From Methylobacterium sp. J-067 (GTDB taxonomy: Bacteria > Pseudomonadota > Alphaproteobacteria > Rhizobiales > Beijerinckiaceae): a DNA stretch of 64,000 nucleotides. The notes under the pieces are model-generated. The model was not told the DNA's origin and did not search any database. It saw only the letters and a list, made by a program, of their open reading frames with translations. The stretch covers positions 186,001 through 250,000 of the forward strand of contig NZ_JAKSXZ010000097.1 in assembly GCF_022829465.1 (NCBI RefSeq). The letters run 5' to 3'. The stretch's first letter is position 1. Each line of letters opens with the position of its first letter. The translations under genes and the position numbers were made by a program. Positions 37,422 to 51,196 of this stretch are shown piece by piece.

Positions 37422-39023
37422 ATGACGTTCCCCCGACGCACCGCCTTCGCGCTCACCGCCAGCCTCGCCCTCGTGGCCCAAGCCCAGGCCGACAGCGTGC
37501 TGCGCATCGCCATGACGGCGACCGACGTGCCCACGGCCACCGGCCTTCCGAACAACGGCTTCGAGGGCATGCGCTTCATGGGTTACCCGATCTTCGAAGC
37601 CCTCACGCAATGGGACCTAACGCAGACGGACAGGCCCTCGGGCATCAAGCCGGCCCTTGCGCAGAGTTACGAGCAGGACCCCGCCGACGGCCACATCTGG
37701 ACCTTCCACCTGCGCCAGGGAGTCAAGTTCCACGACGGCACGCCCTTCGACGCGAACGCCGTGGTCTGGAACCTCGACCGGTTCTTCAAGAACGACAGCC
37801 CGCAATTCGAGCCGCAGGCGGCGGGCATCTCGCGGGCGCGGGCACCCATCGTCGCGAGCTACCGCAAGATCGACGACGCCACGGTGCAGATCACGACCAC
37901 GCAGGTGGCGTCGTACTTCCCCTACATGGTGGTGTACCTGCTGTTCACGTCGCCCCAATCCTTCGAGAAGGCAGGCCGTGACTGGACCAAGGTGCCCGCC
38001 CTGCCGGCGGCCGGGACCGGGCCGTTCAAGATCGTGAAGGTCTCGCCACGCGAATCCGTCGATCTCGCCCGCAACCCCGACTATTGGGATGCCGGCCGCA
38101 TGGCGAAGGTCGACCGCATCCGCCTGATGCCGATCCCGGAGGCGAATGCCCGCGTCGCCGCCCTGCGCTCGGGGCAGGTGGACTGGATCGAGGTGCCGGC
38201 CCCGGACGCGATCCCCTCGCTGAAACAGGCCGGCTTCACGATCACGACGGGCTCGTACCCGCATGTCTGGCCTTGGATCTACAACATCGCCGGCACGAAC
38301 AGCCCCCTGAAGGACGTGCGCGTGCGTCAGGCGTTGAATTACTGTGTCGACCGCGAGGGCATCGTCGCCCTGCTGAACGGCACCGCTGAACCCGCCTCCG
38401 GGTGGCTCAACGACAAGGATCCAAACTTCGGCAAGCCGCAGAACCACTACGTCTCGGATCCAGAGAAGGGCAAGAAGCTCCTGGCCGAGGCCGGCTACGG
38501 GCCGAGCAAGCCCCTCAGCCTGAAGGTGATGGTGTCGTCGTCGGGCTCCGGCCAAATGCTGCCCATGCCGATGAACGAGTACCTTCAGGAGAACTTGAAG
38601 CAGTCCTGCAATGTGGACGTGTCGTTCAACGTGGTCGAATGGCAGGTGCTGCTCAACGCGAGCCGGCTCCTGCCCGATTCGGGCAACCTGCAGGGCTCGA
38701 ACGTGCTGAACGTCTCCTCGCCGTCTTCCGACGCGGCGGTGATGGAGCGGTACTTCTCCTCGTCCCGGTTCCCGCCGGGCGGCTTCAACTTCCCGAACTG
38801 GAAGGACGACCAGTTCGACGCGGCCCTCAAGGCGCTCGCGGAGACGAAGGACCAGAAGGTGATCGACTCGCAGACGCAGATCGCCCACGAACGCCTCGTG
38901 GACAATCCGCCCTGGCTGTACGTGGTCCACGATCTCAACCCGCGTGCCATGTCGAAATCGGTGAAGGGCTTCGTCTCGCCGCAATCCTGGTTCGTCGATC
39001 TCACCCGTGTCAGTGTTCAGTGA
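37422..39023 (+). CDS. ABC transporter substrate-binding protein, dipeptide/nickel (SBP_bac_5) family
   Basis: A 533-residue periplasmic binding protein. A signal peptide (FALTASLALVAQAQA) precedes the SBP_bac_5 fold, with LAQSYEQDPADGHIWTFHLR near 83-102, GVKFHDGTPFDANAVVWNLD, GTGPFKIVKV and VRQALNYCVDRE. Ligands of the family are peptides, nickel chelates or other amide-like solutes. No permease or ATPase genes lie in the window, so it works with a distant transporter or is an orphan. It is 16 bp upstream of an amidase gene on the same strand, so uptake and hydrolysis of one amide substrate is a reasonable inference. Confidence 0.92.
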   Translation: MTFPRRTAFALTASLALVAQAQADSVLRIAMTATDVPTATGLPNNGFEGMRFMGYPIFEALTQWDLTQTDRPSGIKPALAQSYEQDPADGHIWTFHLRQGVKFHDGTPFDANAVVWNLDRFFKNDSPQFEPQAAGISRARAPIVASYRKIDDATVQITTTQVASYFPYMVVYLLFTSPQSFEKAGRDWTKVPALPAAGTGPFKIVKVSPRESVDLARNPDYWDAGRMAKVDRIRLMPIPEANARVAALRSGQVDWIEVPAPDAIPSLKQAGFTITTGSYPHVWPWIYNIAGTNSPLKDVRVRQALNYCVDREGIVALLNGTAEPASGWLNDKDPNFGKPQNHYVSDPEKGKKLLAEAGYGPSKPLSLKVMVSSSGSGQMLPMPMNEYLQENLKQSCNVDVSFNVVEWQVLLNASRLLPDSGNLQGSNVLNVSSPSSDAAVMERYFSSSRFPPGGFNFPNWKDDQFDAALKALAETKDQKVIDSQTQIAHERLVDNPPWLYVVHDLNPRAMSKSVKGFVSPQSWFVDLTRVSVQ

Positions 39024-39039
39024 GCGGCCGGAGCCAGTC

Positions 39040-40425
39040 ATGACCGAACTCCACACCCTCCCGGCCGCCGCCCTCGCCCGGGACATCGCCGCGCGGAAGC
39101 TCTCGCCGGTCGATTGCGTCGAGGCTCTGCTCGGCCGGATCGAACGGCTGGAACCGCAGCTTCAGGCCTTCACGGAGGTCTTCGCGCAGGATGCGCGCCT
39201 CGCCGCCGAAGGCGCGGACAAGGCGATCCGCTCGGGCCACGCGGTCGGCCCGCTCCACGGCGTCCCCGTCGTGCTGAAGGACCTGATCGACCTGGAGGGC
39301 CGGATCACCATGGGCGGCTCGGCCGCCCACCGGACGCGCCGGGCCGCGCGTACGGCGACCGTGGCGCGCAAGCTCATCGCGCAGGGCATGATCGTGCTGG
39401 GCAAGACCCACACGGTCGAGTTCGCCTATGGCGGCTGGGGCACGAACCAGCATCTCGGGACCCCCTGGAACCCCTGGGACATGCAGGTGCAGCGCGTGCC
39501 GGGGGGATCGTCCAGCGGCACGAGCGTCACCGTCGCCGCGCGGCTCGCCCCCTGGGGCATCGGCACCGATACCGGCGGCTCGGTGCGCCTGCCGGCCTCG
39601 TTCTGTGGGCTCACCGGGCTCAAGGTCACGGTCGGGCGGGTCTCGACCCACGGGATCGTGCCGCTCTCCGCGACCCTCGACACGCCCGGCCCCCTGGCCC
39701 GCACCGTCGAGGACGTGGCCCTGCTCTACGAGGCGATCTCCGGTCCCGATCCCCTCGATCCGGTGACGAAAGGCGTCGTCCCGGCGGATCCGTGGACGAC
39801 GCTGCACCGGGGCGTGCGGGGCCTGCGCCTGGCGCGGATGCCGGCGGCCGAGCGGGATGGCGTCGCGCCGGACATGCTCGCCGCCTACGACGCGGCGCTC
39901 GATACGCTGGCGGGGGAGGGCGCCGAGATCGTGGACATCGCCCTGCCGTTCCGCTTCGCGGACTTCCTGGCGATGAGCGACATCACCAACGCGGAGGCCT
40001 ATTTCGAGAACGGGGCGCTGGCGGAGGATGCGGCCTCGCCGCTGGGCGACGCGGTGCGGGGGCGCATCCTGGCCGGCGCCGCCGTGTCCGCGCAGACCTA
40101 CCTGCACACGCAGCGCCGCCGGGCGGCGATGAAGGTGCAGTTCGCGGCGGCGATGGAGGGAATCGATGCCCTGCTGACCCCCACGACGGAATGCGCGGCG
40201 ATTCCCGTGTCCGAGGTGGACGAGGCCTATGCACCCTCGCGCTTCACCCGCTTCGGCAACCTGCTGGACCTCTGCGCCCTCAGCCTGCCGTCAGGCTACA
40301 CGGCGGGCGGCCTGCCGCTGTCGCTCCAAATCGCCTGCCGGGGCTACGACGAGGCCATGGCCCTGCGAATCGGGCAGGGCTTCCAGCGCACTACCGAATG
40401 GCACCTTCGCCAGCCGATGCCTTGA
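39040..40425 (+). CDS. Amidase signature family hydrolase (second copy type)
   Basis: A 461-residue enzyme with the complete triad Lys80 (VVLKDLID), Ser157 (GGSSSGTS) and Ser181 (TDTGGSVRLP). It is only distantly similar to the amidase at 29063. ATG 39040 has GGAG upstream; GTG 39007 would overlap the binding-protein gene. It is closer to the GatA/aryl-acylamidase type by its GGSSSG and DTGGSVR wording, but no GatB or GatC genes are near. It likely cleaves the compound bound by the upstream SBP, or amides formed by the nitrile hydratase. The last 35 bp overlap the convergent sigma factor gene. Confidence 0.93.
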   Translation: MTELHTLPAAALARDIAARKLSPVDCVEALLGRIERLEPQLQAFTEVFAQDARLAAEGADKAIRSGHAVGPLHGVPVVLKDLIDLEGRITMGGSAAHRTRRAARTATVARKLIAQGMIVLGKTHTVEFAYGGWGTNQHLGTPWNPWDMQVQRVPGGSSSGTSVTVAARLAPWGIGTDTGGSVRLPASFCGLTGLKVTVGRVSTHGIVPLSATLDTPGPLARTVEDVALLYEAISGPDPLDPVTKGVVPADPWTTLHRGVRGLRLARMPAAERDGVAPDMLAAYDAALDTLAGEGAEIVDIALPFRFADFLAMSDITNAEAYFENGALAEDAASPLGDAVRGRILAGAAVSAQTYLHTQRRRAAMKVQFAAAMEGIDALLTPTTECAAIPVSEVDEAYAPSRFTRFGNLLDLCALSLPSGYTAGGLPLSLQIACRGYDEAMALRIGQGFQRTTEWHLRQPMP

Positions 40426-41089
40426 GGATGCCGAGCCCCGCGAGCAGCGTCGCGCGGGCCCGGCTCACCCGGCTCTTCACCGTGCCGACCTGACACCCGA
40501 TCCGGTCCGCCGCCTCCTCGTAGGTGAAGCCCTCGGCCCCGACGAGGAGCAGCGCCTCACGCTGGGCGGCAGGCAGGAGGTTCAGGTGCTCGCGGACGGT
40601 GTTGAGGGTGCTCGCATCCTCCTGGTCGGACAGGGCGATCATCCGCTCGGCATGGACGCCGTCGGCATCCTCGACCTCGCGCTTGGCCTTGCGCAGGTCC
40701 GAGTAGAACAGGTTGCGCAGGATCGTGAACAGCCACGCGGTGAAGTTCGTGCCGGGCCGGAAGCGATGCTGGTTCGCCCAGGCGCGGGCGAAGGCCTCCT
40801 GCACGAGGTCGTCGGCGCGCACCGCATCCCCGCAGAGGGAGAGGGCGAAGGTCCGCAGCGCCGGCAGGGCATTGATGATGTCCGCGCGGAAATCGAAGGC
40901 CAGCGCGGCGTCGGCACCCGCAAACAGGGCTTCGAGCCGGGTCACGAGTCCCGACAGCCGCTCGGGCAGCGCGTCGTTCGTCGTGAGAGCGAAGTAATCC
41001 TTGAGAGGCGCGGCCAGATGGCGCCCGATATCGCTGGCGCCGTGAGTCGGCCCCGCCTCGGTTACTCCTTCCGGCAGATCGGCGATCAT
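40391..41089 (-). CDS. EcfG-type sigma factor with N-terminal NepR-like segment
   Basis: A 232-residue protein. Residues 67-138 are sigma region 2 and 163-218 region 4, with EcfG hallmarks [66 protein letters not shown] and [11 protein letters not shown]. EcfG drives the alphaproteobacterial general stress response. Residues 20-54 ([13 protein letters not shown] then [14 protein letters not shown]) read like NepR, the small anti-sigma factor that normally binds EcfG as a separate protein. ATG 41089 has a strong GGGAGGCGGG site, so the extension is translated. No separate NepR or PhyR gene is nearby. The promoter faces the nitrile hydratase operon. Confidence 0.88.
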
Positions 41090-41271
41090 CCCGCCTCCCT
41101 CGACAGATTGAATATTGGAATTTGTCTAAGGTCTCGTACAAGCCGCCGCATGAACCGCTGCTAAACAACCGCGGACGGATTTGCGGGATTGTCCGAAAGT
41201 CCAAGCCGGTGGCGTTTCGGGGTTGGCATCGCGGGGACGCGGGGTGCATCCTCCCGGCCCGAGGATCAGCC

Positions 41272-41913
41272 ATGACGCACGACCATCACCACCACGATCA
41301 CGACCATCCGCACGGCAGCGATCTCACGCCCGTCGAGGCGCGGGTGCGGGCACTGGAATCGCTCCTCGTCGAGAAGGGCTACGTGCAGCCCGCCGCCCTC
41401 GATGCGCTGGTCGAGATGTACGAGACCAAGGTCGGCCCCCATCTCGGCGCCCGCGTCGTCGCCCGCGCCTGGACCGATCCCGCCTATCGCGACCGCCTGC
41501 TGGAGGACGCCACGCCGACCATCGCCGAACTCGGCATCGGCGGGCGGGGCGGCGAGCACATGGTCGTCGTCGAGAACACGCCCGAGGTGCACAACATGGT
41601 CGTGTGTACCCTGTGCTCCTGTTACCCGTGGCCCGTCCTCGGCCTGCCGCCGGTCTGGTACAAGGCCCCGGCCTATCGCGCCCGCGCCGTGATCGATCCG
41701 CGCGGCGTGCTGACCGATTTCGGCGTCGGCCTCCCCGAGACGACGCGGATCACGGTGTGGGATTCCACCGCCGAGACCCGCTTCATGGTGCTGCCGATGC
41801 GGCCCGCTGGCACGGAGGGTTTTTCCGAGGAGGCGCTGGCCGCCCTCGTCACCCGCGACGCGATGATCGGCACCGGCCTGCCGCTCTCGCCCGGCGCGGA
41901 GATCCAGCCATGA
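41272..41913 (+). CDS. nthA: Nitrile hydratase alpha subunit, cobalt type
   Basis: A 213-residue subunit that, with beta, hydrates nitriles to amides. The metal claw is Cys112-Thr-Leu-Cys115-Ser-Cys117; Thr at the second place marks the non-corrin cobalt type (iron types have Ser). Cys115 and Cys117-type residues are oxidised to sulfinate/sulfenate in the family. The N-terminus ([15 protein letters not shown]) has eight His in 14 residues and could gather metal. ATG 41272 follows GAGGAT. Its stop overlaps the beta start (ATGA). First gene of a three-gene operon. Confidence 0.95.
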
Positions 41914-51051: not shown

Positions 51052-51196
51052 GAACGACTTCTCCGCAAGGCTCTCCGGGTGCCCCGGCGCGACCGCTACG
51101 GCCACGCTAGGCGCCAAGCCTTAACCGCATGCTTCCAGCGGCCGTTCCTCGGAGGCTGGGGACAGTGCGTGCTCTGAGACACACAGAATCCACAGC

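Follow-up and report, generated by a model that had tools for sequence, protein, structure and literature searches.

The gene at 40391..41089 on the minus strand of the window (the whole 64,000-nucleotide stretch of DNA analyzed here) is, judging from its sequence, an EcfG-type (ECF15) sigma factor with ~60 additional N-terminal residues, and those residues appear to descend from NepR. Such fusions had been seen before, as the preliminary description suspected. Francez-Charlot et al. (2016; PMC4814048) describe a NepR-like extension of ~55 residues on the EcfG proteins of Methylobacterium extorquens AM1, so the window fusion adds one more case to a type already described and is ordinary for the Methylobacteriaceae. 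Their paper confines the extension to this family, perhaps as an ancient fusion, gives its role as "currently not known" and credits its first notice to an earlier paper. To this we add a tree that fits a single fusion, evidence that the extension is under purifying selection, and the observation that the same genome also keeps nepR and ecfG as an unfused pair. The explanation that we consider best, and moderately probable, is that the protein is an EcfG general-stress sigma factor paralogue in which the NepR-descended segment acts as a weakened built-in NepR on its own sigma domains.

The open frame, its translation and its sigma domains define a product of 232 amino acids. The coordinates given in the preliminary description were confirmed, and the strand, for which it gave nothing, proved to be minus. 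The frame starts with ATG, has an in-frame stop 13 codons upstream and is preceded by the strong ribosome-binding site that had been claimed for the outer ATG: GGGAGG (41094..41099, minus strand) can be read directly 4 nt before the start, as GGGAGG-CGGG-ATG. The only other ATG, GTG or TTG in the first 80 codons is the GTG of codon 49, which lacks a ribosome site, and translation from an internal start was therefore rejected. At its 3′ end the gene converges on a plus-strand frame (39007-40425), with an overlap of 35 bases; we take this frame to be amidase-like from its GGSSSG motif. No match to the stress promoter pattern GGAAC-N16/17-C/GGTT was found upstream of the fusion gene; the window holds one match, at 51123-51148, where 1.13 would be expected by chance.

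The claim that residues 67-232 form an EcfG sigma factor was borne out. When the whole protein was compared with Pfam, sigma-70 region 2 (PF04542; residues 75-137, 40679..40867, minus strand) and region 4 (PF08281; residues 165-215, 40445..40597, minus strand) scored 67.7 and 53.6 bits, and the sigma part consists of these two regions only, which is the ECF architecture. Among solved proteins, the EcfG-type RpoE of Bartonella quintana (5uxx) was the best relative whether we searched by sequence or by structure (E 4.2e-44), with 48% identity over the sigma part in a structural alignment; the matched 5uxx chain carries no such extension, and the entry title indicates that NepR is a molecule of its own there. 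A profile of the core scored 177-232 bits against 27 ecfG loci from other genomes of the order. The nearest of the tree rows on core sequence was that of Methylobacterium sp. J-076 (91% identity in the core), from which we take the gene to be most likely that of a Methylobacterium. A copy on the AM1 megaplasmid (NC_012811, 963279-963920) shares 54.3% identity with residues 3-221 of the window protein and also has an extension, though one that scores only 3.7 bits as NepR.

Taken singly, the window extension is a weak match to NepR. The 65-residue segment alone matched nothing in Pfam or NCBIfam, falling below the Pfam NepR (PF18557) cut-off of 25.7 bits, and a NepR family search of the window's genome returned nothing at the fusion gene at E ≤ 10. 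Within the whole protein, the extension scored 6-7 bits against a NepR profile of our own (E 0.0002 in a one-sequence search), and the fusion was the top NepR match among the window's open frames of at least 30 codons, at 7.1 bits and a nonsignificant E of 0.21 (the next frame scored 2.5 bits). Trimmed to residues 15-63, it reached 11.4 bits with the NepR HMM, a score that none of 5,000 shuffles attained (3,999 reported).

Because the window extension alone is too diverged, we judged its derivation from a family-level profile match. The extension set held 85 sequences: 80 public loci, which were the best 80 of 111 relatives from named genomes and every one of which had an in-frame extension, and five from the window's genome, namely, the window protein and four paralogues. 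Left out were L090, L095 and L096, which are sigma factor matches in the window's genome without the extension, and L097. The NepR set held 27 of 36 Pfam NepR matches, to which 26 other genomes of the order and the window's genome contributed one apiece; measured from stop to stop, 25 of the frames had 64-180 codons and two had 391 and 415. It omitted L131 and L132, which matched weakly, and the second G010 match, along with the extension of the EcfG paralogue on C3 and five more matches from the window's genome.

With the NepR HMM, the 85 extensions had a median score of 17.2 bits (range, 2.9-35.5), against maxima of 7.6 bits for 1,700 shuffled extensions (1,353 reported) and 5.3 bits for 385 reported sigma-core slices; four of the 85 scored under the best shuffle. 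Profile-profile comparison of the 85 extensions with the 27 NepR sequences gave a probability of 97.06% (E 1.6e-10) over 45 columns, compared with at most 2.1% for 100 column shuffles and at most 0.19% for five sigma-core slices, and the 23 rows around the window protein alone still gave 84.2% (E 8.3e-7). Furthermore, the extension of the C3 paralogue in the window's genome scored 34.9 bits, above the Pfam NepR cut-off. Two other paralogue extensions scored 17.0 and 14.0 bits, below it (the latter over part of the NepR model), and the fourth paralogue, C114, was absent among the Pfam NepR matches. These comparisons demonstrated that the extension family is homologous to NepR and, with the predicted helices described below, that it shares the two-helix core. 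An ordinary helical N-terminal extension resembling NepR by chance would accord with the empty Pfam and NCBIfam searches of the 65-residue segment and with the E of 0.21 in the window scan, but it is very improbable in the face of the shuffle-controlled HMM scores and the paralogue above the cut-off, and was rejected on the profile-profile match.

The preliminary description's proposal of a NepR-like N-terminal segment fused to EcfG thus stands, on the profile comparison, the C3 paralogue and the purifying selection described below. The profile match that it anticipated was obtained with the family profiles and with residues 15-63 against shuffles and failed for the segment alone in Pfam. Its alignment of IGRxL (IGRHL, residues 21-25) with the NepR IGxxL motif was off by four residues, one helical turn. 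In both alignments, NepR I-G-x-x-L-R-x-x-Y aligns to L25-A26-A27-P28-L29-K30-D31-Y32-F33, and the NepR-aligned positions that follow are P42-E-R44-L45 and then L48. Position 25 is Leu in all 85 extensions and position 48 in 84; position 42 is Pro in 81/85, position 45 is Leu in 77 and Phe in 7, and position 33 is Phe in 64 and Tyr in 21. In an alignment of 74 sequences (73 of the 80 loci, seven having been dropped at 95% identity, plus the window protein), L25 and L48 are invariant and P42 and L45 are at least 90% conserved; a second alignment took in 48 loci and the window protein. The segment has the two-helix pattern of NepR, L-x3-L-[RK]-x2-[YF] ... P-x-R-[FL]-x2-L; unlike NepR (PF18557), it is fused in cis rather than made as a separate small protein, lies below the Pfam cut-off and has several conserved positions altered.

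With 74 sequences, AlphaFold predicted helices at residues 17-37 and 43-58 of the window protein (mean pLDDT, 80.2; pTM, 0.47), and with 49 sequences it predicted helices at residues 19-40 and 45-61 of the family member L048 (pTM, 0.47). The predicted helices fit the NepR positions in both models. Combining the profile-profile match, the HMM scores with shuffles and AlphaFold2, we place the NepR-derived extension at residues 17-58 (40916..41041, minus strand). The preliminary description had looked to structure prediction for the segment folded on the sigma domains. The two NepR-like helices appeared; confident docking on those domains appeared in neither model, and at a pTM of 0.47 their placement there does not count as predicted. 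The domain arrangement of the window model differed from that of NepR-bound EcfG in 5uxx (TM, 0.33/0.47; rmsd, 16.4 Å).

Between the window gene and its nearest relative among the best 80 of 111, L009, dN/dS was 0.27 over residues 15-61 and 0.10 over the core; for residues 1-14 it was about 1.9, on few codons. The extension gave dN/dS values of 0.10-0.27 in 15 informative pairs of 16 (the other pair, L049-L050, had no synonymous change in the extension), so it is translated and selected. In these 15 pairs, the dN of the extension exceeded that of the core by a factor of about 2 to 10, and residues 1-14 were looser, with dN/dS values of 0.2 to 1.9 where computable, again on few codons. Together with the two positions invariant over 74 sequences, these ratios demonstrated that the extension is under purifying selection and is being kept.

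As had been claimed, no separate NepR or PhyR gene was found in the window; both occur elsewhere in the genome. A single clear PhyR lies on C58, close to a NepR and facing away from it, and a search for EcfG near this pair gave no match. The arrangement resembles that of AM1, where, according to PMC4814048, the ecfG genes lie away from phyR, the phyR locus has no ecfG, one genome has several paralogues and the paralogues other than EcfG1 occur in close relatives only. At E ≤ 0.001, NepR matches in the window's genome number seven, including the C3 EcfG extension. In the order sample, none of the 60 remaining genomes exceeds two at this threshold, and two genomes of the genus have five (G108) and three (G067).

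Some NepR-like segments are joined to other partners. In the window's genome (L008, C39:203125), in G108 (L185) and in G067 (L186), one frame encodes a NepR-like helix pair and, after it, a receiver domain. In Pfam, L185 scored 39.8 bits as a receiver and 22.9 bits as NepR (cut-off, 25.7; it scored 25.7 in the genome search). L008 and L186 scored 21.6 and 22.4 bits as NepR in the genome searches, and their receivers were recognized by eye. A phosphorylatable NepR would be an unusual part. L004 (C3:34319, positions 1-1608, in the window's genome) is a 1,100-codon frame with a NepR-like C terminus on a hybrid histidine kinase, in the order HisKA, HATPase, two receiver stretches and NepR; the NepR part scored 28.5 bits in the genome search and 23.9 bits, below the cut-off, in a scan of 535 residues. 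Among the literature matches listed, we noticed none that described NepR joined to receivers or kinases, and we regard these joins as more unusual than the NepR-EcfG fusion. Some ECF36 members are likewise described (PMC8999054) as having an anti-sigma part fused to the sigma factor; their N-terminal extensions carry transmembrane helices and DUF2275, whereas the window fusion carries NepR.

How might the extension act? Self-inhibition appears likeliest. For some of the time at least, the two-helix extension would rest against the face that binds NepR on the sigma domains of the same chain, where as a weakened built-in NepR it would dampen its own sigma factor and also shield it from free NepR. 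Dampening and shielding together would leave the sigma factor poorly controlled by PhyR/NepR, in the role of a stress sigma factor that is minor or wired in another way. According to PMC4814048, NepR bound only truncated EcfG1 and, weakly, truncated EcfG5 in two-hybrid assays, and not the full-length forms, which is what a cis-occupied NepR site would predict for these two proteins. The other AM1 paralogues, as reported there, left NepR unbound with or without the extension, so in them loss of NepR control need not stem from the extension, and they favor neither side. EcfG1 came down with NepR in vivo both as the full-length isoform and as the one shortened by 14 residues, and either isoform complemented the AM1 sextuple mutant, implying that activity survives the extension and that NepR is not always blocked by it. 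A cis-acting cap also sits uneasily with EcfG2, which looked constitutively active although the extension is given for AM1 EcfG proteins generally. That paper leaves its control, like the role of the extension, unexplained. From the modeling, the failure of either model to dock the extension confidently (pTM, 0.47 in both) and the unlikeness of the window model to 5uxx lend such a cap no weight, but with a pTM this low the models neither support nor refute self-inhibition. As for its derivation from NepR, the window extension fails the Pfam NepR model, and 4/85 extensions lie under the best shuffle.

Several of these observations would suit a decaying fusion remnant with no regulatory role, kept only for folding or stability, which we consider unlikely. 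The higher dN of the extension, the weakness of the window copy as NepR and the complementation by both EcfG1 isoforms (although the shorter one lacks just 14 residues) are as such a remnant would predict. Its dN/dS of 0.10-0.27 and the two invariant positions are not, and the looser ratios belong to the first 14 residues. Slightly less probable again is an action in trans, in which the extension would be a decoy NepR that binds phosphorylated PhyR, or its sigma-like domain, and so provides negative feedback or brings PhyR to the sigma factor. Two AM1 NepR homologues bind PhyR, with binding to any EcfG undetected (PMC4814048), so that PhyR binding may be the sole activity left in some NepR copies, and in the window's genome several NepR-like segments coexist with a single clear PhyR. 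Against such a decoy, the window copy retains the conserved pattern of NepR incompletely (L45 for F, F33 for Y and A26 for G). Returning to the weakened built-in NepR, we offer tentatively a broader version, in which its action in cis would blind the fused EcfG paralogues to free NepR and so create parallel stress sigma factors with differing built-in thresholds, with NepR serving as a portable cassette that is found in this lineage on receiver domains and a hybrid histidine kinase as well. If the built-in NepR does set a threshold, it would help to explain how a bacterium in which a single PhyR is clear manages about six EcfG-type sigma factors.

We placed the fusion in a tree built on sigma-core columns from 110 of 128 rows, near-duplicates of >90% identity having been dropped. 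One branch parted 75 fused from 35 unfused rows (SH-aLRT 92 in a quick search, under the tree program's starred level of 95), and the window protein grouped on its core sequence with other fused proteins. The labels were assigned by hand, every row outside an unfused list being counted as fused, and among the rows listed, five labeled fused (L199, L133, L093, L198 and L202) score ≤6.2 bits as NepR singly. Since one branch splits fused from unfused rows, a single ancient nepR-ecfG fusion is the simplest reading consistent with the tree. In the window's genome (L136, C69:619068-619792, where the nepR TGA overlaps the ecfG ATG) and in two others of the genus (L200 and L196), an unfused ecfG immediately follows a nepR of its own that is read in a different frame, and all three genomes have fused paralogues as well. 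In another genus of the family (L204, G095 C1:1408300-1409800), the nepR TAG, one codon and the ecfG ATG follow in the same frame. The window fusion would make a clean case of a two-gene operon that became one chain in a genome that still keeps an unfused pair. G069 and G095 were considered as fusions and rejected, because the matches that seemed to cover the extension came from a nepR and an ecfG that are separate genes. Microvirga has fused forms too, in six plasmid records among the matches listed, which match from residue 19-24 on (the extension of the Microvirga terrae EcfG scored 17.0 bits as NepR), and in one genome of another genus (L206, 13-17 bits).

Outside the fusion, the divergent neighbor at 41272..41913 on the plus strand, which we take to be nitrile hydratase alpha-like from its VCTLCSC motif, served as a synteny marker. 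Among the best 80 of 111 relatives, this motif was found upstream on the opposite strand in all 21 of the closest loci (L009-L029) and, in a different arrangement, in 1 of the remaining 59. The window paralogue keeps its place beside the nitrile hydratase-like gene, and its clade, unlike the AM1 EcfG proteins, thus has a conserved place of its own. Two minor observations concern the fused loci. A fused EcfG in a metagenome-assembled genome labeled Phreatobacter (L055, 453-1109) grouped with those of Methylobacterium and Methylorubrum; it lies on a 6.5-kb contig that is perhaps mis-binned. Five differently named species of Methylobacterium and Methylorubrum (L043-L047) carry nearly the same fused EcfG and near-identical upstream frames, a likeness that points to recent transfer or mislabeled assemblies.
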